Shown one piece after another: positions 10,406-54,044 of a DNA stretch of 62,143 nt. A program made the translations under genes and the position numbers. Location of the stretch: the NCBI RefSeq assembly GCF_018612875.1, contig NZ_JAGGRI010000031.1, forward strand, positions 1 through 62,143, given 5' to 3'. Origin of the DNA: Lysobacter sp. ISL-50. Its GTDB lineage: Bacteria; Pseudomonadota; Gammaproteobacteria; Xanthomonadales; Xanthomonadaceae. The notes under the pieces were generated by a model. It made no database searches, was not told the origin of the DNA, and saw only the letters and a program-made list of their open reading frames with translations. Positions within the stretch are counted from its first letter, which is position 1. Each line of letters begins with the position of its first letter.

Positions 10406-10435
10406 GAGGTGGCTTCCACGGAGGGTGGCGTCCCA

Positions 10436-12123: not shown

Positions 12124-14151
<2,028 letters not shown>

Positions 14152-14803: not shown

Positions 14804-14986
14804 ACTGGAGGGAAACCGGGAATAACACCCTTGAAAGACCCACGAACACCCGCCCACTTGACCGCAACCCCCATCCGCGCCGAATAATGGTGCCGCAAAC
14901 GCGTCAATCCCGGCTGGGAGCGCCGGATTCATCGGCCGCCGTACCACGGCGGCCCCTGGTCTGTGTGTTCTATGGAGGGAAGTCCC

Positions 14987-15727: not shown

Positions 15728-15851
15728 CACGGCTCACCGGACGGGCGTGCGCGGATCGCAACGATTCGCGCAACGCCGCGATCCCATCGGCGATCGCGAT
15801 GCGGCTTGAATGCGCGTCGCCCGTCGCCATCCATTCGCAGAGATTCCCACC

Positions 15852-16517: not shown

Positions 16518-16526
16518 GAGGCCGCC

Positions 16527-17186: not shown

Positions 17187-18082
17187 CCCAACCCGTTTCC
17201 GTACGCATCGTCGAAGTCGGTCCGCGCGACGGACTGCAGAACGAGAAATCGCAGATCGCCACCGCCGACAAGATCGCCCTGATCGATCGCCTGTCGGCCA
17301 CCGGCCTGCGCAGCATCGAAGCGACCAGTTTCGTCAGCCCCAAGTGGGTGCCGCAACTGGCCGACGCGGCCGAAGTGTTCACCGGCATCCATCGCCGCGC
17401 CGGCGTGCATTACCCGGTGCTGGTGCCCAACGAACAAGGCTACGAACGCGCGCGCGCCGTCGGGGTGGAGGAAATCGCGGTGTTCACCGCGGCCTCGGAA
17501 GCGTTCAACCTCAAGAACATCAACGCCAGCATCGACGAATCGCTGCAGCGCTTCGCGCCGGTGATGGCGCGAGCCAAGGCCGACGGCGTGGCGGTGCGCG
17601 GCTATGTCTCCACCGTGCTCGGCTGCCCGTATCAGGGCGAAGTGCCGGTCAGCGACGTGGTGCGCGTGGCCAAGGCCCTGCACGCGATGGGCTGCTACGA
17701 AATCTCCCTGGGCGACACCATCGGCGTCGGCACGCCGGGCAAGGCGCGGGCGATGTTCAAGGCGGTCGCCGCGGAAGTGCCGCTACAGGCGCTGGCGGTG
17801 CATTTCCACGACACCTACGGCCAGGCCTTGTCGAACATCCTGGCCTGCCTGGAAGAAGGCGTGGCGGTGGTCGATTCGGCCGTGTCCGGCACCGGCGGCT
17901 GTCCTTACGCCAAGGGCGCCAGCGGCAACGTCGCCAGCGAGGACGTGGTCTACATGCTGCACGGCCTGGGCATCGAGACCGGCGTGAATCTCGACGCCCT
18001 CGCCGACACCGGTCGCTGGCTGGCCGGGCTGCTGGGCCGCGAGACCGGCAGCAAGGTCGGCAAGGCGCTGGCGGCGGCGTGA
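17183..18082 (+). CDS. mvaB: Hydroxymethylglutaryl-CoA lyase
   Basis: A 299-aa HMGL-like TIM-barrel enzyme that splits HMG-CoA into acetyl-CoA and acetoacetate, the last step of leucine breakdown (also called LiuE). 'VGPRDGLQNEK' near the N-terminus supplies the catalytic Arg-Asp, 'AVHFHDTYGQAL' the metal-binding His pair, and 'SGTGGCPYAKGASGNVASED' the signature loop with the catalytic Cys. Length matches the family. It overlaps the upstream lipoprotein gene (ATGA) and the downstream GGDEF-EAL gene (GTGA), so all three are probably co-translated. Confidence 0.93.
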   Translation: MTQPVSVRIVEVGPRDGLQNEKSQIATADKIALIDRLSATGLRSIEATSFVSPKWVPQLADAAEVFTGIHRRAGVHYPVLVPNEQGYERARAVGVEEIAVFTAASEAFNLKNINASIDESLQRFAPVMARAKADGVAVRGYVSTVLGCPYQGEVPVSDVVRVAKALHAMGCYEISLGDTIGVGTPGKARAMFKAVAAEVPLQALAVHFHDTYGQALSNILACLEEGVAVVDSAVSGTGGCPYAKGASGNVASEDVVYMLHGLGIETGVNLDALADTGRWLAGLLGRETGSKVGKALAAA

Positions 18083-36394: not shown

Positions 36395-37429
36395 TCAAGC
36401 CGCCGCGTCGGTGCGCAAGTCGAAGGCCGGCGCGACCGGCGGCGGCGCATCCAACTCGGTATCGAGATTCAACGCCCGCACCTGCGCGGTGATGAAATCG
36501 ATGAACACGCGGATGCGCTTGGGCAGCTGGCGCCGGCTCAGATAGCACAGGTAGTGGCCGCGGTCGTCGGGCGCGAACGGATTCAGGCAAGACAGCAGCG
36601 CGCCCGAGCGCAAGGCCGCGCTGACCTGGTACGCCGGCATCTGCGCCAGCCCCTGGCCGGCGGATACCGCTTGCAGCAGCAGATCGTCGTCGTTGAACAC
36701 CAACTCCCCCGGCGGCGTGACCGACTGGGCGACGCCGTCCACTTTGAAGTCCCAGCCGCGCAGGCGCCCGTTCGGCAGCCGCCGGTGGATGCAGGCGTGC
36801 GCCTGCAACTCGCCGATCGACGCCGGCAGGCCGCGCCGGCGCGCGTAATCGGGCGAGGCGCACACCAGCATGCGCATCGGGATCAGCTGCTTGGCGATCA
36901 CCTGGCTGTCGTCCATGCGGCCGTCGCGGAACGCGACATCGACGCGATCGACGGCGAGATCGGCCAGCCGTTCTTCCAAGGTCAGTTCGATGCCGATCCC
37001 GGGATAGCGCAAGCGGAACTCGGCCAGCAGCGGCGCGACGACGTTGCGGCCGAAGCCGTGCGTCGAGCTGATGCGCAACTGCCCGCGCGGCGGGCCTTCG
37101 CGCAGGTCGCGCATTTCGTCCAGGGCCTGGGTGATCCGCTCCACGCCGGGACGGCAGTTCTCGAAGAACAGTTCGCCCTCGCTGGTGAGCGATGTCGAGC
37201 GCGTCGTGCGCAGGAACAGCCGCGCGCCCAACTGCCCTTCCAGTTTCTGCACGCTGCGGCTCACCGCCGAGCGGCCGACGCCCAGGCGATCGGCCGCGCG
37301 CGCGAAGCTGCCCTCGGTGGCCACGGTGATGAAGGCCACCACGCCGGCATAGCTGGCCGAGAAGCTGCACGGCAGCGCGTCGTGGCCGTCGATCGGAGTC
37401 TGCGTCGTCGCGTTCATCGCCAGATTCAT
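36395..37429 (-). CDS. LysR-family regulator downstream of sigma4-only gene
   Basis: A 344-aa LysR regulator. The HTH lies at about 30-90 ('GVVAFITVATEGSFARAADR', 'VGRSAVSRSVQKLEGQLGAR') after an N-terminal extension of about 25 residues; the effector domain follows. The start at 37429 is 5 bp after the stop of the sigma4-only gene on the same strand, so the two should share one transcript from the ECF41-type promoter at 37704-37730. An internal ATG at 37417 is also possible. Likely targets are nearby oxidoreductase genes, which is an inference. Confidence 0.85.
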   Translation of the reverse strand: MNLAMNATTQTPIDGHDALPCSFSASYAGVVAFITVATEGSFARAADRLGVGRSAVSRSVQKLEGQLGARLFLRTTRSTSLTSEGELFFENCRPGVERITQALDEMRDLREGPPRGQLRISSTHGFGRNVVAPLLAEFRLRYPGIGIELTLEERLADLAVDRVDVAFRDGRMDDSQVIAKQLIPMRMLVCASPDYARRRGLPASIGELQAHACIHRRLPNGRLRGWDFKVDGVAQSVTPPGELVFNDDDLLLQAVSAGQGLAQMPAYQVSAALRSGALLSCLNPFAPDDRGHYLCYLSRRQLPKRIRVFIDFITAQVRALNLDTELDAPPPVAPAFDLRTDAAA

Positions 37430-37434
37430 GGTCC

Positions 37435-37695
37435 TCACGCCTCGTCCTGCCCGCACCGGTGCCGCGACGCCAGCGCATGAGCGCGAGCGTGTTCGACCTG
37501 CTGGCGGCACAGCTCCGCCGGTTGGCCGATCATGCGGGCGATGTCGGCGTAGCTGGTCTCGAAGATCACATGCAGCACGAACGCCGCCTGCGCCTCCGGC
37601 GCCAGCGCCTGCAGCGCGCGCAGGAAATCCAGCCAGACCCGCTCGGCTTGCGACGGCGCCGGATCGCCGGGCCGGTGATGAAAAATGATGGTCAT
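37435..37695 (-). CDS. Sigma-70 region-4-only protein, ECF41-derived
   Basis: An 86-aa protein consisting almost only of a sigma region 4 helix-turn-helix: 'ALAPEAQAAFVLHVIFETSY' followed by 'ADIARMIGQPAELCRQQVEH'. It aligns closely with region 4 of the ECF41 sigma factor encoded at 38964 ('RLAPEARAAFLLREVF', 'GDIARTLDKSEAACRQIVHR'), but region 2 and the C-terminal SnoaL-like domain are missing. It has an ECF41-type promoter 8 bp upstream of the ATG at 37695, which supports that start over a GTG at 37731 lying within the -35. It could bind -35 elements or core enzyme without initiating. A degenerate sigma remnant is the alternative. Confidence 0.72.
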   Translation of the reverse strand: MTIIFHHRPGDPAPSQAERVWLDFLRALQALAPEAQAAFVLHVIFETSYADIARMIGQPAELCRQQVEHARAHALASRHRCGQDEA

Positions 37696-38963: not shown

Positions 38964-39854
38964 ATGGAAGGCGCGACTCGACTGTTCACCCAACTGCAAC
39001 CACGCTTGCGTGGCATTGCCTACCGCATGCTCGGCTCGGTGGCCGAAGCCGAGGATGTGGTGCAAGACGTCTGGCTGGCCTGGCATAAGGCCGATCCGGA
39101 GCGCATCGAGGATGCGCAAGCCTGGCTGGTGACCACCACCACCCGGCGCTCGATCGACCGCCTGCGCCTGGCCCGTACCGGCCGCGAGCACTACGTCGGC
39201 ATCTGGCTGCCCGAGCCGATCCTCACCGACGCCAGCGAGGCCACGCCCGAGCAACTGCAGGAAGCCGCGAGCGACTTGTCGATCGCGTTCCTGATGGTGC
39301 TGGAACGGCTCGCGCCGGAAGCGCGCGCGGCGTTCCTGTTGCGCGAGGTGTTCGATGCCGACTACGGCGACATCGCGCGCACCCTGGACAAGAGCGAAGC
39401 CGCCTGCCGCCAGATCGTGCATCGGGCCAAGACCCAGTTGCGCGAGGAGCGGCCGCGTTACGTGGTGTCGGCGCAGGCGCATCAGCGCCTGATGCTTCGC
39501 TTCGCGCAGGCGCTGTCCAGCGGCGATTTCGACGGCATGAAACAGATGATGGCCGAGTCGGCGACCCTGGTCGGCGACGGCGGCGGCATCGTCACCAGTT
39601 TCGCCGAGCCGATGGTCGGCGGGCCGCGCATCGCCCAGCTGCTGTACGCCGCGCGCCTGCGCTACAAGCACGATCTGCGCAACGTGCCGGCCTCGATCAA
39701 CGGCCGCCTGGGCCTGTTGCGCTACGTCGGCGCGGAACTGGAATCGGTGCAGTCCTTCGACACCGACGGCGAGCGCATCGTGCGCGTTTACATCCAGCGC
39801 AATCCGGACAAGCTGCGGCGCATCGCCGCGGCTCAGGTGGCGCTGCTGAGCTAA
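38964..39854 (+). CDS. ECF41-group sigma factor with fused SnoaL-like regulatory domain
   Basis: A 296-aa sigma factor. Region 2 is at about 5-70 ('LRGIAYRMLGSVAEAEDVVQ') and region 4 at about 105-160 ('RLAPEARAAFLLREVFDADY'). A C-terminal SnoaL-like domain follows from about 175. The three ECF41 signatures are visible: 'WLPEP' in the linker, 'DGGG' and 'NPDKL' near the end. In this group there is no separate anti-sigma factor; the C-terminal domain does the regulation. I chose the ATG at 38964 because the -10 element ends right at the upstream ATG (38955), which would leave that codon at or before the transcription start. An alpha/beta hydrolase gene follows. Confidence 0.9.
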   Translation: MEGATRLFTQLQPRLRGIAYRMLGSVAEAEDVVQDVWLAWHKADPERIEDAQAWLVTTTTRRSIDRLRLARTGREHYVGIWLPEPILTDASEATPEQLQEAASDLSIAFLMVLERLAPEARAAFLLREVFDADYGDIARTLDKSEAACRQIVHRAKTQLREERPRYVVSAQAHQRLMLRFAQALSSGDFDGMKQMMAESATLVGDGGGIVTSFAEPMVGGPRIAQLLYAARLRYKHDLRNVPASINGRLGLLRYVGAELESVQSFDTDGERIVRVYIQRNPDKLRRIAAAQVALLS

Positions 39855-40025
39855 CGCCGCGGCGGCGATTTGTATCTCAATGTATCCGGACGCATCGCCC
39901 GCGCATTCGCATACGAATCGGCGACCGCGCCGACACCCGGCGGATACGCCGCCGGCGCGTAATGGACGCCATCCCGCCACGCCGCCGCATCCGCCGGCGG
40001 ATCGGCCTTCATCAGGAGACAGTCC

Positions 40026-41084
40026 ATGAACACCGGTCCTTCCGCCCCGCCGACCAACCCCCTGCGTCGCCGCCTGCTGGGCGGCGCGGCGCTCGCCTTC
40101 GCCGCCGGCCCGCTGGGCGCGATCGGGTCGGTGCTCGCCGCGCCCGCGTCGGTGCGCGCGGCGCCCGCGACTGCCGCGGGCAAGCCGGCGTGGGGAGCGC
40201 TGCGGCAGATCGACGCCGGCGTGCTGCGCGTGAGCTACGCGCAGATGGGCCCGGAGGATGGTCCGCCGGTACTGCTGCTGCACGGCTGGCCCTACGACAT
40301 CCACACCTACGCCGAAGTCGCGCCACTGCTGGCGGCGAAGGGTTACCGCGTCATCGTCCCGTACCTGCGCGGCTACGGCTCGACCGCCTTCCTGTCCGCC
40401 GACACGCCGCGCAACGGGCAACAGGCCGCGCTCGCCACCGATGCGATCGCGCTGCTGGACGCGCTGCATATCGACAAGGCGATCTTCGCCGGCTGCGACT
40501 GGGGCGCGCGCACGGCCGACATCATGGCCGCGCTGTGGCCGCAACGCTGCCAGGGCCTGGTCTCGGTCAGCGGTTACCTGATCGGCAGTCAGCAAGCCAA
40601 TCAGGCGCCGCTGTCGCCGCAAGCCGAGCTGCAGTGGTGGTATCAGTTCTATTTCGCCACCGAGCGCGGCCGCCTGGGCTATGAGCGCAACCGCAGCGAA
40701 TTCTCGCGACTGATCTGGCAACTGGCCTCGCCGCAGTGGCGTTTCGACGATGCCACCTTCCTGCGCAGCGCGGCCTCGTTCGACAATCCCGATCACGTGG
40801 CCGTGGTCATTCACAACTACCGCTGGCGCCTGGGTCTGGCCGAAGGCGAAAAGCGCTTCGACGACATCGAAGCGCGGCTGGCGCGGATGCCCGACATCGG
40901 CGTTGCCACCATCACCCTGGAAGGCGACGCCAACGGCGCGCCGCACCCGCCCAGCAGCGCCTATGCGAATAAATTCACCGGCAAGTACGCGCACCGGCCG
41001 ATCAGCGGCGGCATCGGCCACAATCTGCCGCAGGAAGCGCCAGCCGCGTTCGCGCAGGCGGTGGTGGACGTCGCCGCGTTCTGA
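40026..41084 (+). CDS. Tat-exported alpha/beta hydrolase (epoxide hydrolase-like)
   Basis: A 352-aa protein with a twin-arginine-type signal ('NPLRRRLLGGAALAFAAG', cleavage after an Ala-rich stretch near 45). The alpha/beta hydrolase core has the oxyanion motif 'LLLHGWPYD', a nucleophile elbow 'AGCDWGAR' with Asp in place of Ser, and a late 'GGIGHNLPQE' supplying His. An Asp nucleophile with HGWP is typical of epoxide hydrolases and haloalkane dehalogenases. Located 171 bp after the ECF41 gene; shared control is possible but no matching promoter is seen. Confidence 0.85.
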   Translation: MNTGPSAPPTNPLRRRLLGGAALAFAAGPLGAIGSVLAAPASVRAAPATAAGKPAWGALRQIDAGVLRVSYAQMGPEDGPPVLLLHGWPYDIHTYAEVAPLLAAKGYRVIVPYLRGYGSTAFLSADTPRNGQQAALATDAIALLDALHIDKAIFAGCDWGARTADIMAALWPQRCQGLVSVSGYLIGSQQANQAPLSPQAELQWWYQFYFATERGRLGYERNRSEFSRLIWQLASPQWRFDDATFLRSAASFDNPDHVAVVIHNYRWRLGLAEGEKRFDDIEARLARMPDIGVATITLEGDANGAPHPPSSAYANKFTGKYAHRPISGGIGHNLPQEAPAAFAQAVVDVAAF

Positions 41085-41107: not shown

Positions 41108-42034
41108 TCAGCGCTCGCGCGGATCGATGACCGGCGCGTGCTGCGCCATCACCTCGACGATCCAGTCGATGAACACACGCAGCTTGGCGCTGACATGCCG
41201 GTTCGGCGGAAACGCCAGATACAACGGCATCGGATCGAAGCGCCAATCCTCGAACACTGGAATCAGTTCGCCTGCGGCGCGGTGCGCCTTGGCCATGTAG
41301 TCCGGCAGCCACAGCACGCCCAGGCCGGCCAGACCGGCGGCCAGATAAGCGTTGCCGTCATCGACCGCGAACACGTAGCGGCCTTGCACGCTGACGCTCT
41401 CGCCATCGCGATGCATGGCGTACGGAAACGGTTTGCCGGTGCGCGACCACAGGAAACCGACGATGCGGTGATGGCTGTCTTCCAGTTCGCGCGGATGCGC
41501 CGGCCTGCCCTCGCGCTGCAGGTAATCCGGCGCGGCGTAGGCGCCCAGTCGCAGATCGCCGACGTGGCGCGCCATCAGCGATTGATCGGTGAGCTTGCCG
41601 CCGCGCACGACGCAGTCCACGTTCTCGCCGATCAAATCGACCATGCGGTCGCTGACGCCCAGGTCGATCTGGATATCGGGATAGCGCGCATGAAACTCCG
41701 GCAACGCCGGCACCAGGATCGTCCGCGCCAGCGGACTGGGCACGTCCACCCGCAGCTTGCCGCGCACCGAAGCCGAAGCGCTGGACAGGCTGGTTTCGGC
41801 ATCGTCCATATCGGCCAGCAACCGCACCACGCGCTCGTAATAGACGGCGCCGTCGGCGGTGACGTTGACCTTGCGCGTGGTGCGGTTGAGCAGCTTCACC
41901 CGCAACCGCGCCTCCAACTGCTGCACCAACTGGGTCACGCTGGTCTTGCTCATGTGCAGCGTGTCGGCCGCCTTGGTGAAGCTGCCGGTTTCGACCACGC
42001 GCGCGAACGCCTGCATCGCATCAATACGGTCCAT
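41108..42034 (-). CDS. LysR-family regulator divergent from ridA-like gene
   Basis: A 308-aa LysR protein: HTH at about 4-62 ('DAMQAFARVVETGSFTKAAD', 'MSKTSVTQLVQQLEARLRVK') and an effector domain typical of the CrgA/AaeR-like branch. The ATG at 42034 follows 'ggagcg'; the GTG just before it is a less likely start. It diverges from the RidA-family gene, and a perfect 6-bp-arm inverted repeat at 42058-42076, just upstream of its start, looks like its operator. Confidence 0.88.
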   Translation of the reverse strand: MDRIDAMQAFARVVETGSFTKAADTLHMSKTSVTQLVQQLEARLRVKLLNRTTRKVNVTADGAVYYERVVRLLADMDDAETSLSSASASVRGKLRVDVPSPLARTILVPALPEFHARYPDIQIDLGVSDRMVDLIGENVDCVVRGGKLTDQSLMARHVGDLRLGAYAAPDYLQREGRPAHPRELEDSHHRIVGFLWSRTGKPFPYAMHRDGESVSVQGRYVFAVDDGNAYLAAGLAGLGVLWLPDYMAKAHRAAGELIPVFEDWRFDPMPLYLAFPPNRHVSAKLRVFIDWIVEVMAQHAPVIDPRER

Positions 42035-43130: not shown

Positions 43131-43808
43131 GTGTCGTCGTTCTCCGATCCGCAAGCGGTTGCCCGTTACGCGCAAGGCCCCGTCAGGCAGGTGCCGGGCT
43201 TTCATGCCCTGCAACAGATGACCGAGCTGCTGTTGGCCGAAACCGTTCCCGATGACGGCCACGTCCTCGTTCTGGGCGCCGGAGGCGGCCTGGAGTTGAA
43301 GGTCTTCGCACAAGCGCACCCGCAATGGCGGCTGGTCGGCGTGGACCCTTCGGCGGAGATGCTGAAACTCGCCGACGCCACCCTGGGCCCGCTCGCGACA
43401 CAGGTCCAACTGGTCGAAGGCTATATCGACACCGCGCCGTCGGGCCCCTTCGACGGCGCCACCTGCCTGCTGACCCTGCACTTCCTGCCCAGCCATGAGC
43501 GCCTGCACACGCTGCGCGAACTCAGGCGGCGCCTGAAACCCGGCGCGCCGCTGATCGTCGCCCATCACAGCGTTCCGCAAGCCGAAGACCAGAGACTGCG
43601 CTGGCTCCATCGTTACGCCGCCTTCGCGGCGGCGTCCGGCGTGCCCACGGTGGATGCGGCCAACGCCGTCGCCGCGATCAATAGCCGCCTGCCGCTGCTC
43701 TCGCCTGAGCAAGACGCAGCTTTACTGGAGGAAGCTGGCTTCGAGCGGATCGAACTGTTCTATGCCGGGTTTACCTTCAAGGGCTGGGTCGCCTGCAACC
43801 CTGTCTGA
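43131..43808 (+). CDS. Class I SAM-dependent methyltransferase
   Basis: A 225-aa Rossmann methyltransferase with a GTG start preceded by 'ctggagcccggtt'. Motif I 'HVLVLGAGGGLELKVF' binds S-adenosylmethionine; 'LVGVDPSAEMLKLA' is motif II with the acidic residue, and 'PFDGATCLLTLHFLP' motif IV. The substrate is unknown. It converges with the lanM gene and is separated from it by a REP element and a terminator, so a role in lanthipeptide tailoring is possible but not supported by operon structure. Confidence 0.85.
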   Translation: MSSFSDPQAVARYAQGPVRQVPGFHALQQMTELLLAETVPDDGHVLVLGAGGGLELKVFAQAHPQWRLVGVDPSAEMLKLADATLGPLATQVQLVEGYIDTAPSGPFDGATCLLTLHFLPSHERLHTLRELRRRLKPGAPLIVAHHSVPQAEDQRLRWLHRYAAFAAASGVPTVDAANAVAAINSRLPLLSPEQDAALLEEAGFERIELFYAGFTFKGWVACNPV

Positions 43809-43852: not shown

Positions 43853-43880
43853 CGTCATTCCCGCGAACGCGGGAACGACG
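43853..43880. repeat. Single REP palindrome between converging genes
   Basis: The sequence cgtcattcccgcgaacgcgggaacgacg is one copy of the palindrome that forms the array at 14260-14803. It sits between the methyltransferase gene and the end of lanM and may help end transcription from the methyltransferase side. Confidence 0.7.
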
Positions 43881-43925: not shown

Positions 43926-46796
43926 TCAAGAGACCGCCAGCGCCTCTGCGTCCGCCGACGTGCGCGTCTTCAAACCGGTCTGCCGCTTGCATTCCAGCAA
44001 CAACGGCGAAGCCAGATCGCACTCAGGATGCATGCGGTTGAGCCCGTGAATCGCCCCGGCCAGACCGGTCATCAGTCCCGGCGTGAACGCCTGCTTGGTG
44101 ATGCCGCCGACGATGCCGTGTTCCTCGATCGCCGAAACGACTTGCGCGGTGGCGTCGTCGCGATCGATGGCGCTGGCGTCCGGATCGAGCAAGGACGCGC
44201 GCACCAGCAGCTCCCACAGCGAGAAATCGCCGTGACACAGCGTGTGGGTGAAGCCCCACTGCCCGCGCGCCGCCGCCACCGCGCGGCGCATGTCGCGCAG
44301 ATCGCGCGCATCGCCGCTGCGCGCGTACAGATCCGCCGCGGCCAGGCCGATGCCGACGCCGCCGTTGCACCAGGTCGGAAAGTTCACCGTGTCCTGCATG
44401 CGCACATCGCGCCAGTTGCCGATCGAAGCGTCGAACAACGAATCCTGGAAGGCGAACGCGGCATCGGCGAGTTCGTTCCAAGCCTTGCGTTCGGATTCGC
44501 TGCCGGCGTCGCTGCGCGCCAGACGCGCCAAGGCCCAGCCGATACCGTAGCCGCCGTGGGCGAAGCCGCCGATCGGATCGGCCAGTTCCAGCGTCTGCCA
44601 ATAGGTTCCGCGCTCATCGCTGCGCACCGCCGATTGCAGGCGCGCCGCGGCGCGCGCGGCCAGCGTCAGCCAACGCCGGTCGCCGGTGGCTTCGGCGAGG
44701 CCCAGCATCGGCGCGACCGCGCCGCAACTGCCGTCGGTGATATCCAGGCTGCGATCGTCGTCGAAGCCTTTTTGCTCCAGCGCCTGCGCGCAGGCGCTGG
44801 CATTGGCCAGCAATTGCGGCCGCCCGAGCAGATCGTGCAGCACCAGCCAGGCCCAGATGCGGCTGCCGTCGCCGGTGAAGCCGCCCACCGTCGCCGGCGC
44901 CGGCTCGGCCTCGACCAGACTCTGCAACGCGACCAGGGCGCCTTCCAGAGCCTCATCCACGCCCGCCACCGGATCGGCGCGGCCGTTAGCCACTTCATGC
45001 CGATACCCGGCCAAGGCCACGGCAACACCGCCGAGGCCGAAATAGGTGTCGCCGCCCAAGGGCTGCACATGCCAGCCCTGGCTGCCGAAGCTCTCCGGCG
45101 TGATCCAGGTGGTCGAACCGTCTTCGCCGTGCACCGCCAGTTTCAACAGCCGCTCGGTCGTATCCGCGGCGAGCTTGCGCCTGCGTTCGTCGAGCCGGTC
45201 GCGATGCGGGTGACGAGCGTAGTGCGAACGGCTGTCGCGTTCGCTCGGGCCGTCGGCGCCGCTGTTGAGTTGGGTGACGACCAGCGAACTGCGGATCGTC
45301 ATTTCCTCCAGCTCGATCCGCATCGCGCGCCAATTGGCGAAGGTCTGCGCGATGCGTTCGGGCGACAGCGACAGCGCGAATATCGGAATGTCGCCATAAC
45401 GCAGATCGTGGATTTCGCCCGCGATTTCCTCCTCCGTGAACGCCACCGCGCCGACGCTGCTGGAGAACAGCTTGCGCGCGCGTTCGATCGACTTGGCTTC
45501 GTCGTACAGCGACGCCGGATGCCAGAGCATGCGGCCGATTTCCACGTAAATCTGCGTCGCGCGGCGGACCTCGCGCGCGCGGCAGCCTTCGAACGCGCTC
45601 AGCAGCGGCGCCAGCGCGCCGTCGGCATCGAGCCGGCGCAGCCGCCGCGAGGCATCGAGAAAGGCGTCGCTGATCTCGTCCCAATACCGCGACACATCCG
45701 GATTCGGGCTGGGATGGTTCTGCGACATCGCCATTTCCGCTTCGACGATCTTCACCCGCGCATCGGTGGTGCCGTCGCCGGCGATGACCGGCACCTGCAA
45801 CTGCGGCTGCTCGCCCGGCAATGCGCCGGCGGCGGACAAGTCCGCGCGGCCGAAACCCAGCACCGGCGAACGGAACGGCACGATGCCGGTGCGCAGCACC
45901 GAGCTTTGAATCAGGGTCTGCGCTTGATCGTAGGCCTGGCCGTAACCCGACGGCGTCACCGGCAGCGCGGCGGCGAACAGGCTCTCGACATCGACCACCA
46001 CCGGCACTGGACCGGCGGCGACCAGATTTTCCAGATGGATGTCGGTGCCGCCGAGCAGGCGCAGTATCGCCAGCCAATGGCCGAGGCCGCGATAAAAACC
46101 GCGCAATTCTTCATCGCCGTCGCAATAGCGATGTTCGATGAAAGCGGCCCAGCCGTAGTCGCCCTGGTCGAGCACCGCCGGCACGCGAATGCGTCCGTCG
46201 CCTTCGAAGACGTGTGCGAGGAAACCGTCGAGCACCGCGTCGATACGCAGCGAACGCGGCTTGTACATGACCTGCCCGGCCTCGAAACTCAGCCGCGCCA
46301 CGGTCTGCCCGCCTTCGTGCAGATCGCCTTGGTCGAGCGTGATCGAGATCAAGCGGCCGGGCGCGGCGCCGAGCAAGCTCGCCAACTGCGCGCGGTCGGC
46401 GATCAAGCGCACGATCAGCGTTTCGATGGCGAGGCACTGCTGGCTCAGCGTGCGCTCCAGGCGCTCGCGCAGCGGCGGATAGCGGCCGTACAGAAGTTCG
46501 GAAAACTCCGGGCGCAAGGCCTTGGCGACGAATTGCGCGAAACGGCCCGGTTCATCCTCGGCGGTGAGTTCGCCGGCCAGCTTCGCCGCGTGCAGTTCCA
46601 GCAGCAGCACGCGATTGAGCTTGAGCCGCGCATTGGCGTACAGCGCCTGGGCGACGGCGGCGCGGATCAATTCTGATTCGTCCGCATCCAGGCCGCAGGC
46701 CAGCGTCGCGAGGCGGGCGTCGAAGGCCTCGCGCGCGGCGGCGGTGAAATGATCGGTGATCGGACCGAAGCCCTCGTGGATACGGCTTTCGGTCAT
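43926..46796 (-). CDS. Class II lanthipeptide synthetase LanM
   Basis: A 956-aa bifunctional enzyme that dehydrates Ser/Thr and then forms (methyl)lanthionine rings on its precursor in the cytoplasm. The N-terminal kinase-like dehydratase (DUF4135, about 100-560) shows 'MYKPRSLRID' (177-186) and 'GGTDIHLENLV' (249-259). The C-terminal LanC-like cyclase (about 580-930) has 'FAHGGYGIGWA' and the zinc ligands Cys810 ('PTWCNGG') and Cys854-His855 ('TLCHGDF'). Length is normal for LanM. The precursor gene lies 108 bp upstream on the same strand, with a hairpin between them. No LanT, LanP, LanFEG or LanR gene is found in the window, so export and leader removal must use proteins encoded elsewhere. 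The two catalytic halves look intact. Confidence 0.95.
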   Translation of the reverse strand: MTESRIHEGFGPITDHFTAAAREAFDARLATLACGLDADESELIRAAVAQALYANARLKLNRVLLLELHAAKLAGELTAEDEPGRFAQFVAKALRPEFSELLYGRYPPLRERLERTLSQQCLAIETLIVRLIADRAQLASLLGAAPGRLISITLDQGDLHEGGQTVARLSFEAGQVMYKPRSLRIDAVLDGFLAHVFEGDGRIRVPAVLDQGDYGWAAFIEHRYCDGDEELRGFYRGLGHWLAILRLLGGTDIHLENLVAAGPVPVVVDVESLFAAALPVTPSGYGQAYDQAQTLIQSSVLRTGIVPFRSPVLGFGRADLSAAGALPGEQPQLQVPVIAGDGTTDARVKIVEAEMAMSQNHPSPNPDVSRYWDEISDAFLDASRRLRRLDADGALAPLLSAFEGCRAREVRRATQIYVEIGRMLWHPASLYDEAKSIERARKLFSSSVGAVAFTEEEIAGEIHDLRYGDIPIFALSLSPERIAQTFANWRAMRIELEEMTIRSSLVVTQLNSGADGPSERDSRSHYARHPHRDRLDERRRKLAADTTERLLKLAVHGEDGSTTWITPESFGSQGWHVQPLGGDTYFGLGGVAVALAGYRHEVANGRADPVAGVDEALEGALVALQSLVEAEPAPATVGGFTGDGSRIWAWLVLHDLLGRPQLLANASACAQALEQKGFDDDRSLDITDGSCGAVAPMLGLAEATGDRRWLTLAARAAARLQSAVRSDERGTYWQTLELADPIGGFAHGGYGIGWALARLARSDAGSESERKAWNELADAAFAFQDSLFDASIGNWRDVRMQDTVNFPTWCNGGVGIGLAAADLYARSGDARDLRDMRRAVAAARGQWGFTHTLCHGDFSLWELLVRASLLDPDASAIDRDDATAQVVSAIEEHGIVGGITKQAFTPGLMTGLAGAIHGLNRMHPECDLASPLLLECKRQTGLKTRTSADAEALAVS

Positions 46797-46857
46797 TGCG
46801 ATACCGGTATGGGTTCTGGCGGCGGCGCGAGGATGGCGCGCGCGGAGGGAGTAGCGA

Positions 46858-46888
46858 CGACGCGCAACCCGTGCCGGGCTGCGCGTCG
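46858..46888 (-). terminator. Attenuator-like hairpin between lanA and lanM
   Basis: A stem of 14 pairs, one of them a G-T wobble, with a 3-nt loop (CGACGCGCAGCCCG-GCA-CGGGTTGCGCGTCG on the - strand) begins 16 bp after the lanA stop and ends 61 bp before lanM. No T-run follows, so it may act as a partial terminator or RNA-stability element. Hairpins at this place in other lantibiotic operons favour excess precursor over synthetase. Confidence 0.6.
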
Positions 46889-46904
46889 ATGACGCGTGGC
46901 TAAC

Positions 46905-47090
46905 TCAGATGCAGCAGTAGCAGCGGCCGTTGGGGCATGTAGAGACCGACGTGGAATGCGTTACCGGAGCCCGCATGGCATCGGTCACCGCGCTTTCGCC
47001 TTCCAGATACAGCGGACCCGCCGGATTCTCGTAGCCATCGACGCTGTCGGCGCCATTGAGCCAGCCCGAGACGATATCGTTGCTTTGCAT
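46905..47090 (-). CDS. Class II lanthipeptide precursor (mersacidin/lichenicidin-type leader)
   Basis: A 61-aa peptide with an excellent ribosome site (aaggaggactagca) before the ATG at 47090. The acidic leader contains 'NDIVSGWLNGADS' and 'ENPAGPLYLE'; N-P-A-G is a hallmark of mersacidin/lichenicidin-family leaders. The C-terminal part ends 'STSVSTCPNGRCYCCI'. Six Ser/Thr (44, 46, 47, 48, 50, 51) all lie before four Cys (52, 57, 59, 60). There is no Gly-Gly site; by alignment to typical leaders the cut could fall at A38-M39, giving a 23-residue core. It is the only precursor I find. LanM follows on the same strand. The core sequence matches no lantibiotic I know exactly; the nearest likeness is the CPTTKC end of two-peptide beta components. 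Confidence 0.85.
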   Translation of the reverse strand: MQSNDIVSGWLNGADSVDGYENPAGPLYLEGESAVTDAMRAPVTHSTSVSTCPNGRCYCCI

Positions 47091-47476
47091 TGCTAGTCCT
47101 CCTTGAGTACTGAATGTCGCCCAGCAGACGGCCGCTCCATGTGTCGAAACCCCGTCGCACCGGACATCGATTTCAACCTCGCGGCCTCTCCCTCGCAAAC
47201 CGATTCGCATCGGCGGCGTGTTTCCAGAGATACCACTTTGGCACTCTAAGCAGAGCGCTGAGCTACTGTCAAATGTGCAGTGCAGCAGGGTTCTGTGGCG
47301 AGGGTTCTGTTTGATAGCAGGGCTTGGGCGGCGCACGGGCTATGCGGCATGGGGCGCGACTCAACTGCCGCTGCGGGTCGGAAAGGGACGCCACACGGCC
47401 AGTTCCATGCCCTCCGTACGCGAGACGCCCGGACCCGCCCGACCTACAATCACCGACACACGGACGGGGAACATTG
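47091..47476. other. Divergent regulatory region between lanA and DUF262 gene
   Basis: A 386-bp gap, less GC-rich in its middle than the genes to its left. It holds the lanA promoter (47243-47272, - strand) with a leader of roughly 145 nt, and a -10-like TACAAT (47445-47450) 26 bp before the DUF262 gene. Short ORFs in it have no ribosome site and are not called. Confidence 0.55.
47243..47272 (-). promoter_or_regulatory. Sigma-70-type promoter for lanA
   Basis: On the - strand a perfect -35 TTGACA (47272-47267), an 18-bp spacer and a -10 TAGAGT (47248-47243). It is the best sigma-70 match noticed upstream of lanA and implies a 5' leader of about 145 nt. Function is predicted from sequence alone. 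Confidence 0.55.
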
Positions 47477-49489
47477 ATGAGCAATGCCGCAGAATTGAGC
47501 GCCCTTGAGAGCGTTCTCGAAGAAAAGCAGTTCGTTGTGCCGCATTACCAACGCGGTTATGCCTGGAAACAGGAACAGTGGTTGGCGCTATGGAATGACC
47601 TGGACAATCTGTACAGGCTCGGCGCGACCAGCCATTTTGTCGGCATGCTGATGCTGCGAACACAAGGCAGTCGTGCCGAAGTGGTGGACGGACAGCAACG
47701 ACTGACGACCATGATGATTCTGGCGAACGCGCTACGGGAAGCCGCCGGCCAGAAGCCGGTCGCATACGCGTTGACGTTCCTGGAGAACGACGACATTCAG
47801 AATCATTTCGACTTCCATGCGCTCGGAAGAATCGGGGCGGCCAGCAGAATCTCTCCCGACCATGTATCCAGCTATGCCAAGAACGTCAAGAAGGCAACGC
47901 TGTTCTTCAAGGAACAGGCAAAGACGCTCGGGGCGCAGAACGCGTTGCATTACCTCAACGTTCTGTTGACCCGCTTCCAACTGTTCGTACTTGAAGTGTC
48001 GGACAGCTTCGACATCCATATCGCATTCGAGACACTGAACAACCGTGGACTCCAGCTGTCGAAAATGGAACTTCTGAAAAATCGGCTGATCTACCTGTGC
48101 TCCGTCCTTCCGGACGAAGACAAATTGACCGGCGCGAGGATCAAAGACGAGATCCACCGGGCGTGGCGCGGCATCTACATCGCGCTTGGACGCATAGCCG
48201 AAACCTCGATGGATGACGACACGTTCCTGGACGCCCACGCGACCGTCTTCTATGGCCGATTGCGCGAGAAGAACTGGCTGCGAAACAAGCTCTTCGATTC
48301 TGAGTTCACCACTCGGAATCCTTCCCTGCGACTGCAGGACATATACGATTACATCGGCAGCCTGGAAACCGCGGCGCTGTGGTGGTCGCACATTCATCAG
48401 CCACGTCACTTGCCCTCGGCTCAACAGAAGGCGCTGACCCAACTCAATCGGGCCCAGTTCTCGAACATAAAACCGTTGCTGCTCTCGGCCTTTATGCGAG
48501 CCGGGCTGGAACACCCGGGCGCCGTCATCGAACCGGCTGCACATGCCGAACTTTTCGCGCCGATCCTCAACCTGATGATCCAGGCCGAGCGATTCGGCGT
48601 GATCGTGTTCCGCCTTCTCGGCAATAAATCCACGTTGGGAAAGGCTTATCTCGACAGTTGTGCACAAGCGTTGTTGAAACCCGGCCGCAAGGACCCCAGC
48701 GATCTTCCGGGGCTATCGGCAATGGATTCCGCGCCGGCGATCGACTACATCGCAGACTATCTCCATGCGTGGGCGACGAACAAAAACACTAACGCGTCAC
48801 GCCAGGACCCGCGCTTCGATTGGACCGGTGCATTCTCAAAATTCGACCTCGCAACGACACAGATCGAACAGCGATTCAGTCAGCACAACGGCGGGGGATA
48901 CTACGGTTGGCAGTTCACCCGCCTGGCGCTCTTCAATTACGAGGAAGCCTTCCGCCGCAATGGGAACGCCCCCGTCAAGCTCTCGTGGGAGGACTTCAGT
49001 TTCGACGAGACGGTGGAGCACATTTTCCCGAAGGCCGCCGAAGCCAAGGACGACTGGAACCAGGCCATCCCTATCGACGGCCGCTTCAATCGCAATGACA
49101 AGCTGCGCAAAGCCTTGGGCAATTCCATCGGCAATCTGCTGTTTCTTTCGCGATCGGACAACTCATCCGCGTCCAACAACCCCTATGTCGGACCCACTGG
49201 CAAGAAAGAACGCTACGCAAAGAACGGCTATTCCGCCGCGCAGGTAGCTCGGGTATTCAAAAAGTGGGATACCCTGACCATCGCCGCTCGAGGCGTGGCC
49301 ATCCTCAAAAAATGCGAAGAGCGCTGGGACTTCGAATTGGTGGAAAATTCCGATCGGTACATGAATTACTTGCCACTGGTCTTCGGTGCCCAACACGAGG
49401 CTATCTCCGATGGTAAGGCGGGACGACCGATCAGCGAACGCTCCCTCAAACCGCTGGTGGACGAACTGCTCGCCGACTTCCAGCGGTGA
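47477..49489 (+). CDS. DUF262/DUF1524 protein (single-chain GmrSD-like nuclease)
   Basis: A 670-aa protein with an N-terminal DUF262 domain: 'VPHYQRGYAW' at 21-30 and the nucleotide-binding 'EVVDGQQRLTTMM' at about 68-80. The C-terminal DUF1524 domain has the HNH-like 'EHIFP' (His515) and 'NSIGNLLFLSRSDNSSASNN'. In GmrSD, a type IV restriction system against modified phage DNA, these two domains form the NTPase and nuclease parts. The ATG at 47477 follows 'acggggaac'. Base composition is clearly less GC-rich than in neighbouring genes, a sign of transfer. It stands alone, divergent from lanA. A defence role is likely from the family but unproven. Confidence 0.85.
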   Translation: MSNAAELSALESVLEEKQFVVPHYQRGYAWKQEQWLALWNDLDNLYRLGATSHFVGMLMLRTQGSRAEVVDGQQRLTTMMILANALREAAGQKPVAYALTFLENDDIQNHFDFHALGRIGAASRISPDHVSSYAKNVKKATLFFKEQAKTLGAQNALHYLNVLLTRFQLFVLEVSDSFDIHIAFETLNNRGLQLSKMELLKNRLIYLCSVLPDEDKLTGARIKDEIHRAWRGIYIALGRIAETSMDDDTFLDAHATVFYGRLREKNWLRNKLFDSEFTTRNPSLRLQDIYDYIGSLETAALWWSHIHQPRHLPSAQQKALTQLNRAQFSNIKPLLLSAFMRAGLEHPGAVIEPAAHAELFAPILNLMIQAERFGVIVFRLLGNKSTLGKAYLDSCAQALLKPGRKDPSDLPGLSAMDSAPAIDYIADYLHAWATNKNTNASRQDPRFDWTGAFSKFDLATTQIEQRFSQHNGGGYYGWQFTRLALFNYEEAFRRNGNAPVKLSWEDFSFDETVEHIFPKAAEAKDDWNQAIPIDGRFNRNDKLRKALGNSIGNLLFLSRSDNSSASNNPYVGPTGKKERYAKNGYSAAQVARVFKKWDTLTIAARGVAILKKCEERWDFELVENSDRYMNYLPLVFGAQHEAISDGKAGRPISERSLKPLVDELLADFQR

Positions 49490-49498
49490 ACCCGGAGG

Positions 49499-49520
49499 GG
49501 CCGCATCTGGCGGCCTTGTT
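49499..49520 (+). terminator. Probable terminator after DUF262 gene
   Basis: GGCCGC-ATCTG-GCGGCC makes a 6-bp perfect stem with a 5-nt loop, 10 bp after the stop codon, followed by TTGTT. A short but plausible intrinsic terminator. Confidence 0.5.
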
Positions 49521-49638
49521 CGTTCAAGGCTGCCATGCGCCAATGCGTAGTCGGACAAGCCATGGCTGCGCCCAAAGGATTGTATGCGCACCTCTTCTTA
49601 CGCACACCCGCCAAATGTTTACCGCGTGGAGTCGCGCT

Positions 49639-50154
49639 TCAGCCAAAGTACGCCAGCACAATCAGGCGCTTTTTCGGAAACACCACCAGCACTTTCTCCG
49701 GGCCGTTGGCGTAGAAGTTGCCCGGCTCGCGAACGGCTCGTTCCAGCTCTTCGCGCAGCGCCCAGTCGGCCTCGGCGCAGTGCAGCCCCAGCGATAGCAG
49801 GCTCTGATCGTCGTTCAAGTCGGGGACATGCGGGGTCGGCTGCCATGGCTCGAAGGTGTGGTAGTAGTCGTGGGCCTTGCGCGAGTAACGCGCGTTGTCG
49901 AAGAAACGCAGGCCTTGTTCCGTTATCGCGTCCGCGGTGGCGCGATCCAGACGGAAGATGGCGACGCCGCAGCCTTCGCGCCAGCCGGATTCGCCTTCGA
50001 TGAAGGTCGGGTAGGAAATGCCCAGCGGCTCGGGGATGACGCCGGCCATCCACCACGCTTCCAACAAGCACCAGGCGATATACAACGACAGCATGACGCA
50101 TGCGATCGCGATGAGGACTCGTTCGCCTATGAAGACTCTCTCGATGCTGGTCAC
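49639..50154 (-). CDS. Hypothetical membrane-anchored protein
   Basis: A 171-aa protein with one N-terminal membrane segment ('VLIAIACVMLSLYIAWCLLE') and a soluble domain of about 130 residues, probably periplasmic. The domain is acidic and aromatic-rich ('FFDNARYSRKAHDYYHTFEP'). Not recognised. It stands alone between the DUF262 gene and the cytochrome gene. Confidence 0.62.
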   Translation of the reverse strand: MTSIERVFIGERVLIAIACVMLSLYIAWCLLEAWWMAGVIPEPLGISYPTFIEGESGWREGCGVAIFRLDRATADAITEQGLRFFDNARYSRKAHDYYHTFEPWQPTPHVPDLNDDQSLLSLGLHCAEADWALREELERAVREPGNFYANGPEKVLVVFPKKRLIVLAYFG

Positions 50155-50334: not shown

Positions 50335-51744
50335 TCAATTACCGTCGCGATCGACCGTGCGCAGCGGCTCCTGCACGGGCGCGCTGACACGGTTCGCGCC
50401 GACGCGACCGGCGCGCGGTCCGGTGTCGGCGACCGGCGGCGGCGTGCGCAGGCTCTGGTAGTAGTTGCGGATGCCGGCGCTGAGTTGCAGCGAGTAGTCG
50501 GTGGTCATGTAGCGGTCGCCGGTCTGGGTTTCGATGTGGGCGCCGCCGGGGATGGGTTTGAAGAATTCGTCGAACTGCGCCATCGGGTAGACGCTGGGCT
50601 TGGCGGCGCTGAAAACGGCCATGACCATCGGTTGGCCGATCTTGCTCGCGGTGGGGCCGGCGTAGGTGCCGGCGCGGCCGTGGCAGGAGATGCACGACGA
50701 CACCGGACTGTCGATGGGGCCGTTGAGGCGGCCGCCGAGGCCGTGGTGCATGACGTAGGCTCGGTTGCCGTAGTCCCAGCCGGTGCGTTCGACCAAGGAC
50801 GAAGTGATGCGGGCCTGGGTCAGTGCGGTGTTGACGAAGACGCCGTCGCGATTGGCGTCGGTGCGCACGGGCAGATCGTCGCCCCAGCTCGCGCCGACCG
50901 GGATCATGCGATCCCACACGGTCGGGCCGGGCGCGCCGCCGTCGTAGATGAAGGTGCCGAACACCCAGCCGGTGGTGTCGGCCATGCGCGGGTCTTTGAC
51001 GGCGACGTCGAGTTGCAACAGGCGCACGGTGCGATCCACGCGCGGCTTGTTGTAGTTGACGTCGGGGTAGATGTTCGCGGTCCAGGTCTTGGTCCGGCTC
51101 AGGTACGGGATCTGCGCGGTGCTGGCGTCGGTGAACAACAGTTTGCAGGCCACCGAGTTGTCCGCGAAAGTCGATTTCGACGGATCGGGACGGCCGTCGG
51201 CGGTGCGCCAGACCTTGCCCAGGCTGACCGCGCCGCGGTCGTTGTAGAAGCCGACCGCCCAGTTCTGCGCGCGCTCGGTCTGTTTGCGATGCAGGTCGAG
51301 CGGGCGCGCCATGCGTTCGCGGGTGAGGCCGCGGCGCCATTCGCGGCCGCCGCCGAACTGGGCGCCGTCGTCGTGCAGCCACGGCGCGTGATACCACTTG
51401 CGCACGCGGTTGTTCTGCACTTTGAAATCGACATCGACATTGCCTTCCAGGCAGTAGTCGAGGACCGAACGCAGGTATTCGGTGGGGAAGGCTTTGAAGT
51501 CGATCGCCATCCACGGGAAGGTGTCGTCGGCGAAGGTGGTCGGGTAATCCTGGCTGAGTTCGAAGACATCGCGCGCGCCTGGCGGCGGAGGATAGTGCGG
51601 GTCGTAGCTGGGAAAGCGCACGGTGCCGTCGGCGGCGGCCGGAGCGGCCGGCGTAGCGCCAGCGGCGCCCGCGGTTCGTTCCTGCGATACCGCCGTGGCC
51701 ACCGTGGCCGCGATCAAACCCACTGCGATCAGCGCTGTTTTCAT
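50335..51744 (-). CDS. Periplasmic cytochrome c-like protein, one heme site
   Basis: A 469-aa protein with a Sec signal peptide ('ALIAVGLIAATVATAVS', cleavage near 20). One covalent heme motif C-x-x-C-H ('SSCISCHGRAGT', Cys351, Cys354, His355). The large N-terminal part is rich in Trp and Tyr and has no motif I recognise ('RKWYHAPWLHDDGAQFGGGR'). The C-terminal 60 residues are Arg/Pro-rich. It is probably an electron-transfer or oxidoreductase protein of the periplasm. The domain order (long unknown region then heme) is unlike simple c-type cytochromes. Confidence 0.75.
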   Translation of the reverse strand: MKTALIAVGLIAATVATAVSQERTAGAAGATPAAPAAADGTVRFPSYDPHYPPPPGARDVFELSQDYPTTFADDTFPWMAIDFKAFPTEYLRSVLDYCLEGNVDVDFKVQNNRVRKWYHAPWLHDDGAQFGGGREWRRGLTRERMARPLDLHRKQTERAQNWAVGFYNDRGAVSLGKVWRTADGRPDPSKSTFADNSVACKLLFTDASTAQIPYLSRTKTWTANIYPDVNYNKPRVDRTVRLLQLDVAVKDPRMADTTGWVFGTFIYDGGAPGPTVWDRMIPVGASWGDDLPVRTDANRDGVFVNTALTQARITSSLVERTGWDYGNRAYVMHHGLGGRLNGPIDSPVSSCISCHGRAGTYAGPTASKIGQPMVMAVFSAAKPSVYPMAQFDEFFKPIPGGAHIETQTGDRYMTTDYSLQLSAGIRNYYQSLRTPPPVADTGPRAGRVGANRVSAPVQEPLRTVDRDGN

Positions 51745-52218: not shown

Positions 52219-53238
52219 TCACGCCCCGGTGCTCCCCGCCGCACCCAAGCCGTTCCACTGTTGCGGCCGCGGGGTCCAATCGCCCTGCCCCAGCACCGCT
52301 TCGAGCAGGTGTTGCACGGGGTAGCCCAGATGCTCGCCGGCGGCTTGACCGGCGTCGTCGCGATGGGCGGCCAGAACAAAGGGGACGAAGGCATCGTGGT
52401 CGCGCGCGGCCAAGCCGATCATTTTCTTGGCAAGATCGTAGGACAGCAGGTTGCCGTCGTCGGTACGGTGGAAGGCGGCGCCGGACCAGTATTCCTGGAT
52501 GCGTTCGGGGGTCCAGAACGCGGCGTGTTTCTGCGCGATTTCCTTCGGGGTGTAGAGCGAGGCGCGCGGGTCGCCCAGGCGCGGGAACAGGCTGTGTTCG
52601 GTGTTGACCGCCATCCCTTCGTTGACCCAGGTCGGAATGGGCAGATGCGCGAGCAAGGCGTGGGTGAGTTCGTGGGCAATGGTGGGGTGCATGGCGTCGG
52701 CATCGTTTTCGCACAAGGCGAAATGGCCGTAGCCGGCGTTGACGAACATACCCGAGGACATCGCGTATTCGCCGCCTTCGGGATAGTAGTGGGCGATGTA
52801 GTCGTAGTACTGATCGTCTTCCATGAAGATCAGGCACACGTGCTTGCCGCCGCCGATGGGCTGCGCCAGCGGGCCCAGGTTGCGCACGATCCAGCGCCGC
52901 GCCGATTCGCAGAATTTCAGGAACGACTGGGCGTCGGCGGATTCCAATGCGGTCAGCAGCAAAAAGCGCTCGGATGAGAGCACGCGGTAGCCGGGGCCCA
53001 GCGATTGCGCCAGCGCTTGCAGCCAGCGATCGGCAGCCGCGGTCCAGAACGCATCGCGTTCGGCATCCGACCAGTCCGGGCGCTCGGCTTCGGCGATACG
53101 TTCCCAGTCCGGCAGCGGTTGGCGGGTATCGCCCCACCAGTGCATCGCGACTTCGGGCACCGGAACCGGGACGGACGGCGAGATTTGCGGCGATGGCGGC
53201 GAGGCCGTTTTGAACAGACTGCGCAGGCGGTCGAGCAT
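52219..53238 (-). CDS. Predicted zinc metallopeptidase (HExxH)
   Basis: A 339-aa protein with the zinc site H-E-L-T-H ('TIAHELTHALLAHLP', about 189-193) followed by 'WVNEGMAVNTEH' (Glu about 207), the spacing of gluzincin-like peptidases. The N-terminus is Pro/Ser-rich (residues 10-30) and has no signal peptide from the chosen start; in-frame upstream ATG codons reach to 53343. The ribosome site is weak for all choices. Similar HExxH proteins cleave unknown targets. It diverges from the next gene, 194 bp away. Confidence 0.72.
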   Translation of the reverse strand: MLDRLRSLFKTASPPSPQISPSVPVPVPEVAMHWWGDTRQPLPDWERIAEAERPDWSDAERDAFWTAAADRWLQALAQSLGPGYRVLSSERFLLLTALESADAQSFLKFCESARRWIVRNLGPLAQPIGGGKHVCLIFMEDDQYYDYIAHYYPEGGEYAMSSGMFVNAGYGHFALCENDADAMHPTIAHELTHALLAHLPIPTWVNEGMAVNTEHSLFPRLGDPRASLYTPKEIAQKHAAFWTPERIQEYWSGAAFHRTDDGNLLSYDLAKKMIGLAARDHDAFVPFVLAAHRDDAGQAAGEHLGYPVQHLLEAVLGQGDWTPRPQQWNGLGAAGSTGA

Positions 53239-53432: not shown

Positions 53433-54044
53433 ATGAATCTGGATACCCGATCGCGTGCGCCGCGCGCGCTCGCTTCGCCGGCGCGCGCGCCTCGGCCGCA
53501 TGCGCTGCGCGTGTTCGCGTTTTGCTTGGTCATCGCGGCGGCGACGCTGTCCGCGCCGGCCTGGGCGGGCTTGCCCGAGTATCGGGTCTCGGTCGCCAAC
53601 ACCGACATCCTTCGCCATCAAGCCGATGCGGCGCCGATGCGTATCGGCCGCTTCACCGCCGCGCGCGGCGCCGACGATCAGGCCACGCAGGAAGCGGCCG
53701 AGGCGGCGGTGTATCTGCGCGATGCCTTGTCCGCCGAACTGCAGGCCGCCGGCCGGCTGAGCGCGCAGGCGACGATCGACATCGACGGCGATCTGCGCCG
53801 TTATCAGGTCGGCCCGGCGCCGTCGTCGGGCATCAACCGCGCCAGCGTCGTCCTGCACGTCAGCGTGCGCCGCGATGGCGCGGTCGCGATGCAACGCGAT
53901 TTGAGCATCGAGCAAGTGTGGCCGCATGCGGGCACGCCGTGGATCGCGCGCTCGCTGACGTCCGACCGCTTGCTGACGGCGATGCAGAGCTTGTTGCGGC
54001 AGCTGTACTCGGACCCGCAGTTCAAACGCGTTACGGCGCGCTGA
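53433..54044 (+). CDS. Exported protein of unknown function
   Basis: A 203-aa protein with a long basic n-region and a hydrophobic stretch ('ALRVFAFCLVIAAATLSAPA', cleavage near 'AWA-G' at about 45). The mature domain ('YRVSVANTDILRHQADAAPM', 'ATIDIDGDLRRYQ', 'SVVLHVSVRRDGAVAMQRDL') is beta-rich and looks like a small periplasmic or outer-membrane-assembly-type fold. 'agggggagttcg' before the ATG is a good ribosome site. Not recognised by name. Confidence 0.65.
   Translation: MNLDTRSRAPRALASPARAPRPHALRVFAFCLVIAAATLSAPAWAGLPEYRVSVANTDILRHQADAAPMRIGRFTAARGADDQATQEAAEAAVYLRDALSAELQAAGRLSAQATIDIDGDLRRYQVGPAPSSGINRASVVLHVSVRRDGAVAMQRDLSIEQVWPHAGTPWIARSLTSDRLLTAMQSLLRQLYSDPQFKRVTAR

Follow-up and report, generated by a model that had tools for sequence, protein, structure and literature searches.

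The window analysed here is the whole of contig C25, 62,143 nucleotides, of the Lysobacter sp. ISL-50 genome (5.9 Mb in 72 contigs, 99.35% complete). On its minus strand lie lanA and lanM, a lanthipeptide precursor gene and the gene for its class II synthetase. We believe it likely that the pair is a compact, apparently mobile lanthipeptide operon, whose product is modified by LanM and then exported and trimmed by the host, generally without a LanT of the C39 peptidase type. The product is very probably a peptide stapled by rings, from a family that has been published before. An earlier note on this DNA had described the pair as an orphan class II locus with no transporter or regulator nearby and closed by an intrinsic terminator. 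The gene pair (at the places and on the strand given there), its class and the lack of a nearby transporter all held up, and the terminator and the regulator-free surroundings did not.

Table 1. Features of the lanA-lanM operon, in positions of the window.
Feature	Position	Strand	Description	Basis
lanA	46905-47090	minus	61-amino-acid DUF6229 precursor; leader about residues 1-43, core about residues 44-61	PF19740 score, alignment
Predicted core THSTSVSTCPNGRCYCCI	46908-46961	minus	near-invariant over 11 loci	boundary inferred
lanM	43926-46796	minus	956-amino-acid class II lanthipeptide synthetase	TIGR03897, PF13575, PF05147
Shine-Dalgarno site AAGGAGG	47098-47104	minus	7 nucleotides upstream of the lanA ATG	sequence reading
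Sigma-70-type promoter TTGACA-18-TAGAGT	47243-47272	minus		consensus scan
5' leader	47091-47242	minus	152 nucleotides; candidate cis-regulatory RNA	covarying stem regions
Hairpin	46858-46888	minus	13 base pairs; possible attenuator setting the lanA:lanM ratio	covariation

LanA matches the DUF6229 family with 61.5 bits (PF19740, gathering cut-off 25), and its final 18 residues hold six Ser/Thr and four Cys, as looked for in a class II precursor. A Trp, a Leu, a Gly and the motif NPAG in the leader are common to 17 aligned DUF6229 precursors; we take this NPAG to resemble mersacidin leaders. At E≤10 and with HMMER filters on, the 17 precursors match PF19740 alone in Pfam and nothing in NCBIfam, hence no model for precursors of the mersacidin or any other type. 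The window-type core follows the pattern THSTS[VI]STCP[NST]GRC[YIV]CC[IM], and the ratio pN/pS (nonsynonymous to synonymous differences), pooled from 55 pairs, is 0.21 for residues 43-61 and 0.46 for residues 2-42.

DUF6229 genes were found in 23 of the 297 genomes sampled from the window's family (41 places), in 44 of 398 sampled from the order (65 places) and in three of 398 sampled from the phylum, every one of these in the window's family. We call that family, Lysobacter and its kin, f1, and the sister family, which we take to be Rhodanobacteraceae, f2. The THSTS-type core is present in 11 of the 41 f1 precursors (the window's and ten others), and a search with the leader RNA described below added G959 and G960 from the same genus, which makes 13 core loci, all in one family. 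The G960 precursor is identical to the window LanA and its gene occupies the same site, where the DNA is about 93% identical (LanM 96.4%). No THSTS-type core occurs among the 38 f2 precursors read (from 47 places), one of which (L148) has the Cys spacing of the window core between different flanking residues.

The precursor family is already known. DUF6229 proteins have been suggested as lanthipeptide precursors in at least two groups, and the Dyella-type group has been named rhodanocins (PMC9576775). For 24 Lysobacter genomes, PMC11451712 reports 72 class II clusters, 27 unique precursors (21 of them DUF6229) and six precursor families. A literature search for DUF6229 gave these two papers only, and one for rhodanocin gave PMC9576775 only. 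The window core may equal one of the six Lysobacter families, and its sub-family is at most a new member within DUF6229. As to the proposal that the product may be new, the literature searched has no described product with the window core, but DUF6229 precursors as such have been published. Lanthipeptide clusters of L. enzymogenes are listed in PMC9410377, and L. capsici has three class II LanM genes with raised expression, one of which may correspond to the window LanM (PMC10380237).

Against NCBIfam TIGR03897 (cut-off 304) LanM reaches 501.6 bits, and it contains the two domains of a bifunctional enzyme, a DUF4135 dehydratase (PF13575, 286.2 bits) and a LanC-like cyclase (PF05147, 118.2 bits). 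Residues D158, H160, K179, D252, H254, N257, D269, R408 and T414 pair with D252, H254, K274, D347, H349, N352, D364, R506 and T512 of CylM, and C810, C854 and H855 pair with the CylM zinc ligands C875, C911 and H912 (residue roles in kinase and elimination chemistry and in zinc binding from the available text of PMC4550811). The CylM segment with the zinc site aligns with 4.2 bits only, and the same residues are placed by one long LicM2 alignment. The positions of R408 and T414 were counted in the LanM comparison and the others by hand. All 12 residues, the Cys-Cys-His zinc site included, are in place in the window and invariant across the 11 LanMs compared, so the reading of lanM as an intact gene was sound. 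The named relatives of this LanM come from Lysobacter sp. Root76, Lysobacter sp. Root690, L. enzymogenes ATCC 29487 and Luteimonas panaciterrae, which agrees with the Lysobacter-like character given in the earlier note.

We consider it well supported, by homology and by precedent from Dyella, that LanM would phosphorylate and eliminate core residues and form rings. A Dyella DUF6229 precursor underwent four dehydrations and three cyclisations upon co-expression in E. coli (PMC9576775). In the window, LanM would bind the DUF6229 leader, phosphorylate the Ser and Thr of the core and eliminate the phosphate, and addition of Cys would then give lanthionine rings. T44, S46, T47, S48, S50 and T51 all stand N-terminal to C52, C57, C59 and C60, and for this reason any rings, whatever their predicted number, would have the Thr51-Cys52 bond in common, in a nested or overlapping arrangement. 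Residue 54 is Asn in the window and Ser or Thr in eight of the 11 core loci, so strict segregation of Ser/Thr from Cys is found only in the Asn forms. We rejected segregation as a hallmark of the sub-family: as position 54 can be N, S or T, it is exact at three core loci out of 11, and it also occurs in L042 of another group.

The two-gene layout is not peculiar to the window locus, because two genes are the DUF6229 rule. Each of the 41 f1 DUF6229 genes has a LanM gene in the same orientation no more than 1.5 kb away, and each LanM of this set adjoins one or two lanA; in the window lanA comes first, 108 nucleotides from lanM. At none of the 41 f1 and 47 f2 places (88 of 88, with no correction for contig ends) did the search detect a C39 peptidase within 20 kb; the nearest in f2 is at 28 kb, and there is none on the window's contig. 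The missing LanT is the norm of the DUF6229 family, and the literature searched has, in its available text, no mention of this absence.

So small a locus might also be the decaying remnant of a larger cluster, as its two genes and missing LanT could suggest. We find this barely credible, since the active sites are intact in 11 of 11 LanMs, the core has the low pN/pS given above, promoter and leader are conserved, and a LanM adjoins every one of the 41 DUF6229 genes tested. Some LanMs serve many scattered precursors, ProcM being an example. For the window LanM this is very improbable: the window lanA is the only DUF6229 match in its genome, and the related enzymes have one or two lanA each.

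The earlier note had called for a genome-wide search for C39 transporters, and the answer differs between genomes. Our count covers 11 core carriers, with G959 and G960 outside it. The window genome has four C39 matches, all of them C39-ABC fusions by Pfam (L064, 707 amino acids; L066, 717; L067, 720; L112, 664 inside its stretch), yet the genomes of four core carriers out of 11 yielded no such fusion. In G190, G263, G273 and G293, all core carriers, there is one C39 match each, to a C39 domain without an ABC domain, in frames of 236, 253, 392 and 324 amino acids from the first start. The DUF6229 carriers G020 and G118 have no C39 match in their whole genomes. Several carriers seem to lack a C39-ABC exporter-protease altogether, and as no fusion was detected in four of 11 core carriers, supply of a LanT by another cluster cannot explain maturation in general.

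In the window genome itself, its four fusions make it possible for the LanT of another cluster, for example the one on contig C21, to process the peptide in trans. We nevertheless think this unlikely. Besides the carriers without a C39-ABC fusion or without any C39 match, the leader of the core family has no double glycine at its boundary with the core in the alignment, whereas the C21 precursor candidate has EALFGG. In addition, the tolerant C39 protease LahT150 failed to cleave rhodanocin despite a possible double glycine (PMC9576775, available text), which fits host export without C39. The C21 cluster (L064, positions 8224-18720) is the second class II cluster of the window genome and apparently complete, with the EALFGG precursor candidate, a 923-amino-acid LanM, ABC-type genes and the 707-amino-acid C39-ABC protein. 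A third LanM of 975 amino acids is on contig C44 (L065, 9319-12478), with an open reading frame of 59 amino acids upstream.

With modest confidence we favour export by the host with no C39 involved. Host functions encoded at other loci, in general other than a C39-type LanT, would carry the modified peptide out of the cell and trim it. Three own-genome queries against the script-called genes of 38 loci, a comparison that covers ABC proteins alone, gave ABC-like proteins in four loci: a UvrA (L043), an exporter-like protein (L062) and two similar proteins of 540 and 544 amino acids with duplicated ABC_tran and no membrane domain (the one in L074 was scanned). The script can miss genes, as it did the LanM of G118, which was recovered by a Pfam search.

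These counts, together with the lack of any recognised immunity gene near the window locus, would also suit a modified peptide that stays inside the cell, or leaves it when the cell lyses, with an internal or structural role and no need of a dedicated exporter. We consider such a role rather improbable, since a lanA-lanM-ABC gene order in G020 suggests export in at least one relative, and a cleaved relative inhibits Klebsiella (PMC9576775, available text). That activity of the Dyella-type product is weak (minimum inhibitory concentration 126 uM), and the window peptide may have some bioactivity of its own. The G020 locus (L062, 3761-10170) has the order lanA, lanM, ABC gene, berberine-bridge-type (BBE) oxidoreductase gene; the ABC protein is exporter-like, has 606 amino acids and carries no C39 domain.

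An M13 metallopeptidase is encoded near LanM at seven loci (L051, L052, L056, L057, L060, L077 and L080), which span several DUF6229 groups; its identity comes from clustering, with one of the seven scanned. As a leader peptidase it did not convince us: it is not seen at the window, and it looks positional because most of the seven loci have other flanking genes in common. Neither PMC9576775 nor PMC11451712 states, in the text available, how DUF6229 peptides are exported or lose their leaders, and the words transporter, protease, leader and export do not occur in the available main text of PMC11451712.

Our view that the unit is apparently mobile comes from its surroundings and from trees. We compared six genes on each side and took at least two shared families to mean one context, and by this measure the 11 cassette loci fall into seven contexts. 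In the LanM tree G190 groups with G138 and G090 (support 100/99), whereas in the rpoB tree it stands outside the other 13 genus members (SH-aLRT, an approximate likelihood ratio test, 94; quick search, no bootstrap). Forcing eight members of an rpoB clade together in the LanM data costs 52.7 log units and is rejected by the approximately unbiased test (p-AU 0.003). The simplest reading would be transfer of the two-gene unit. Carriage by plasmids or phages was rejected, as all 186 LanM-matching plasmid records are below 60% identity and the one phage record is weak.

Transcription would start at a sigma-70-type promoter, and the RNA would comprise a structured 5' leader followed by lanA and lanM. 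The promoter, with its 18-nucleotide spacer, is found 179-205 nucleotides upstream of lanA in all 11 core loci (as TTGACG and TAGGAT in L043), and at each of them its score was matched by none of 40 shuffles. A weaker TTGAC[AG]-17/18-CAGCGT stands at a similar position in L056, L073, L074, L075 and L079, where 8-31 of 40 shuffles reach the score, and L076 and L078 have TTGACA-17-TAGCGT closer to lanA (2-3 of 40). As a comparable though weaker element is present in some DUF6229 groups outside the sub-family, the promoter may predate it. The lanA genes of the ten other core-family loci are also preceded by Shine-Dalgarno-like sites, and the site at the window lanA is as good as the earlier note had said.

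The 5' leader is 149-175 nucleotides long among the core loci. Over 30 pairs in 11 sequences we counted 21 double-changed cells, against 9.6 +/- 3.1 in shuffled alignments (0 of 500 as high) and 3-8 in slid controls. Covariation exceeds the controls on four of five measures, and further pair types are unexceptional (92 of 500). Ten of the 40 predicted pairs were left out of the count because they overlap the promoter; the structure was derived from the very alignment used for the count, an advantage over the slid versions, and the shuffles ignore relatedness. Strong sequence constraint over the whole leader is not supported by the divergence comparison given below, and therefore the RNA claim rests on the pair counts. 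The 3' half has a divergence of 0.279.

Rfam has no match to the leader at E≤1. A covariance model of it found the 11 training loci and, elsewhere in 40 sources, matches at E 0.14 and 0.64 only. Within the genus it was found in 11 of 20 genomes, always before a window-type lanA, with a weak match in G959 besides (E 0.04; 150 candidates scored per genome). The two genomes it added, G959 and G960, both have it ahead of a lanA with the same core. The available text of the literature searched makes no mention of such an RNA.

Between the genes, a hairpin 3' of lanA may favour lanA over lanM. In an alignment of ten of the 11 loci (G263 left out), 94.6% of cells are paired, and 12 are double-changed against 3.9 +/- 1.4 in shuffled alignments, a count that none of 500 shuffles reached; for further pair types 43 of 500 did. 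Within the core family, an intergenic run of at least four T occurs in L043 and L054 only, and it is absent from the window. The intrinsic terminator proposed downstream of lanM is at chance level, with three terminator-like sites against 2.9 expected from shuffles. A stronger stem there is one of the GTCATTCCCGCG palindromic repeats; this copy is directly 3' of lanM (43854-43865), and a cluster of them lies at 14261-14802.

Several points weigh against our preferred reading, an operon matured by the host without a C39-type LanT. No exporter or protease can be named for the export and trimming steps. In 21 of the 41 f1 cases the contig carries no C39 anywhere, and some contigs end less than 20 kb from lanA, including that of the window, which ends 15 kb beyond it. 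Judged by eye, the C39 proteins without an ABC domain have a signal-like N-terminal stretch and look secreted, and they might yet cleave the leader in some carriers. The window genome has its C39-ABC fusions, one of them in an apparently complete class II cluster. Modification of the window peptide is argued from homology and the Dyella DUF6229 precedent. Paralogy could produce the conflict between the LanM and rpoB trees. The leader divergence of 0.343 is not below that of lanM fourfold sites (0.307), and it is lower in 14 of 55 pairs. A more far-reaching version is one we put forward tentatively and doubt more than we believe: a DUF6229 lineage maturing without any C39 LanT, with a self-contained, mobile cassette of promoter, RNA leader, lanA, hairpin and lanM and a generic host route, and, in the window's sub-family, control by a new leader RNA and fully nested or overlapping rings.

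Our open reading frame script called 23 other proteins inside or touching 10 kb on either side of the locus, and all except a dubious 58-amino-acid frame (39851-40027) were scanned with Pfam. The 22 scanned proteins have no match to an ABC transporter, a C39 peptidase or a subtilisin-type protease, as expected from the earlier note, and four have no Pfam match at all (49639-50154, 50335-51744, 52219-53238 and 53433-54044). One neighbour is an alpha/beta hydrolase (40026-41084). Regulators, which the earlier note had found none of within 10 kb, are present: two LysR genes (41108-42034 and 36395-37429) and two sigma-70-type genes (38964-39854 and 37435-37695), none with a visible tie to lanA-lanM.

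A methyltransferase gene at 43131-43808 adjoins the cassette in five of 13 loci but was rejected as a tailoring gene. It has homologues in 19 of 26 genomes at E≤1e-10, including the cassette-free G283, G157, G015, G229, G217 and G062, and none was found by that search in the cassette carriers G070 and G144. Beside lanA, in a low-GC patch on the plus strand, 47477-49489 encodes a GmrSD-type protein of 670 amino acids (PF03235, PF07510; PADLOC HEC-06, 156.7 bits). The stretch 47292-49631 has no counterpart in syntenic G960, which carries different DNA there. Further off, 57235-59322 (plus strand) encodes a phospholipase C-like protein with a weak match to the TAT signal.

Few gammaproteobacterial lanthipeptides have been characterised, and PMC9576775 calls two of its own the first in its available text. 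Carriers with no detected C39-ABC transporter are natural test strains for the export question. Should such cassettes rely on a general exporter of the host, a lanthipeptide could pass from one species to another with two genes alone. A lesser additional lead is the candidate 5' leader RNA.

Among known systems, the closest are the rhodanocin and other DUF6229 lanthipeptides, which share the precursor family, a class II LanM and Lysobacterales hosts with the window locus (available text of PMC9576775 and PMC11451712). Rhodanocin has the rings Thr6-Cys11, Thr12-Cys23 and Cys8-Ser14 (PMC9576775). The Ser/Thr/Cys order of the window core, compared with this published ring pattern rather than with the rhodanocin sequence, is different: a ring with Cys before Ser is impossible because no Ser or Thr follows any Cys, and the core does not show the rhodanocin pattern. 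Canonical class II clusters, represented by CylM and LicM2, share the LanM domains and active-site residues. In contrast to LanT-dependent class II lantibiotics, the window locus has neither a C39-ABC LanT in the cluster nor a leader ending in double glycine. The C21 cluster of the same genome also has a LanM with PF13575 and PF05147, but it differs from the window locus in having a double-glycine precursor candidate, with a C39-ABC gene and further ABC-type genes alongside.

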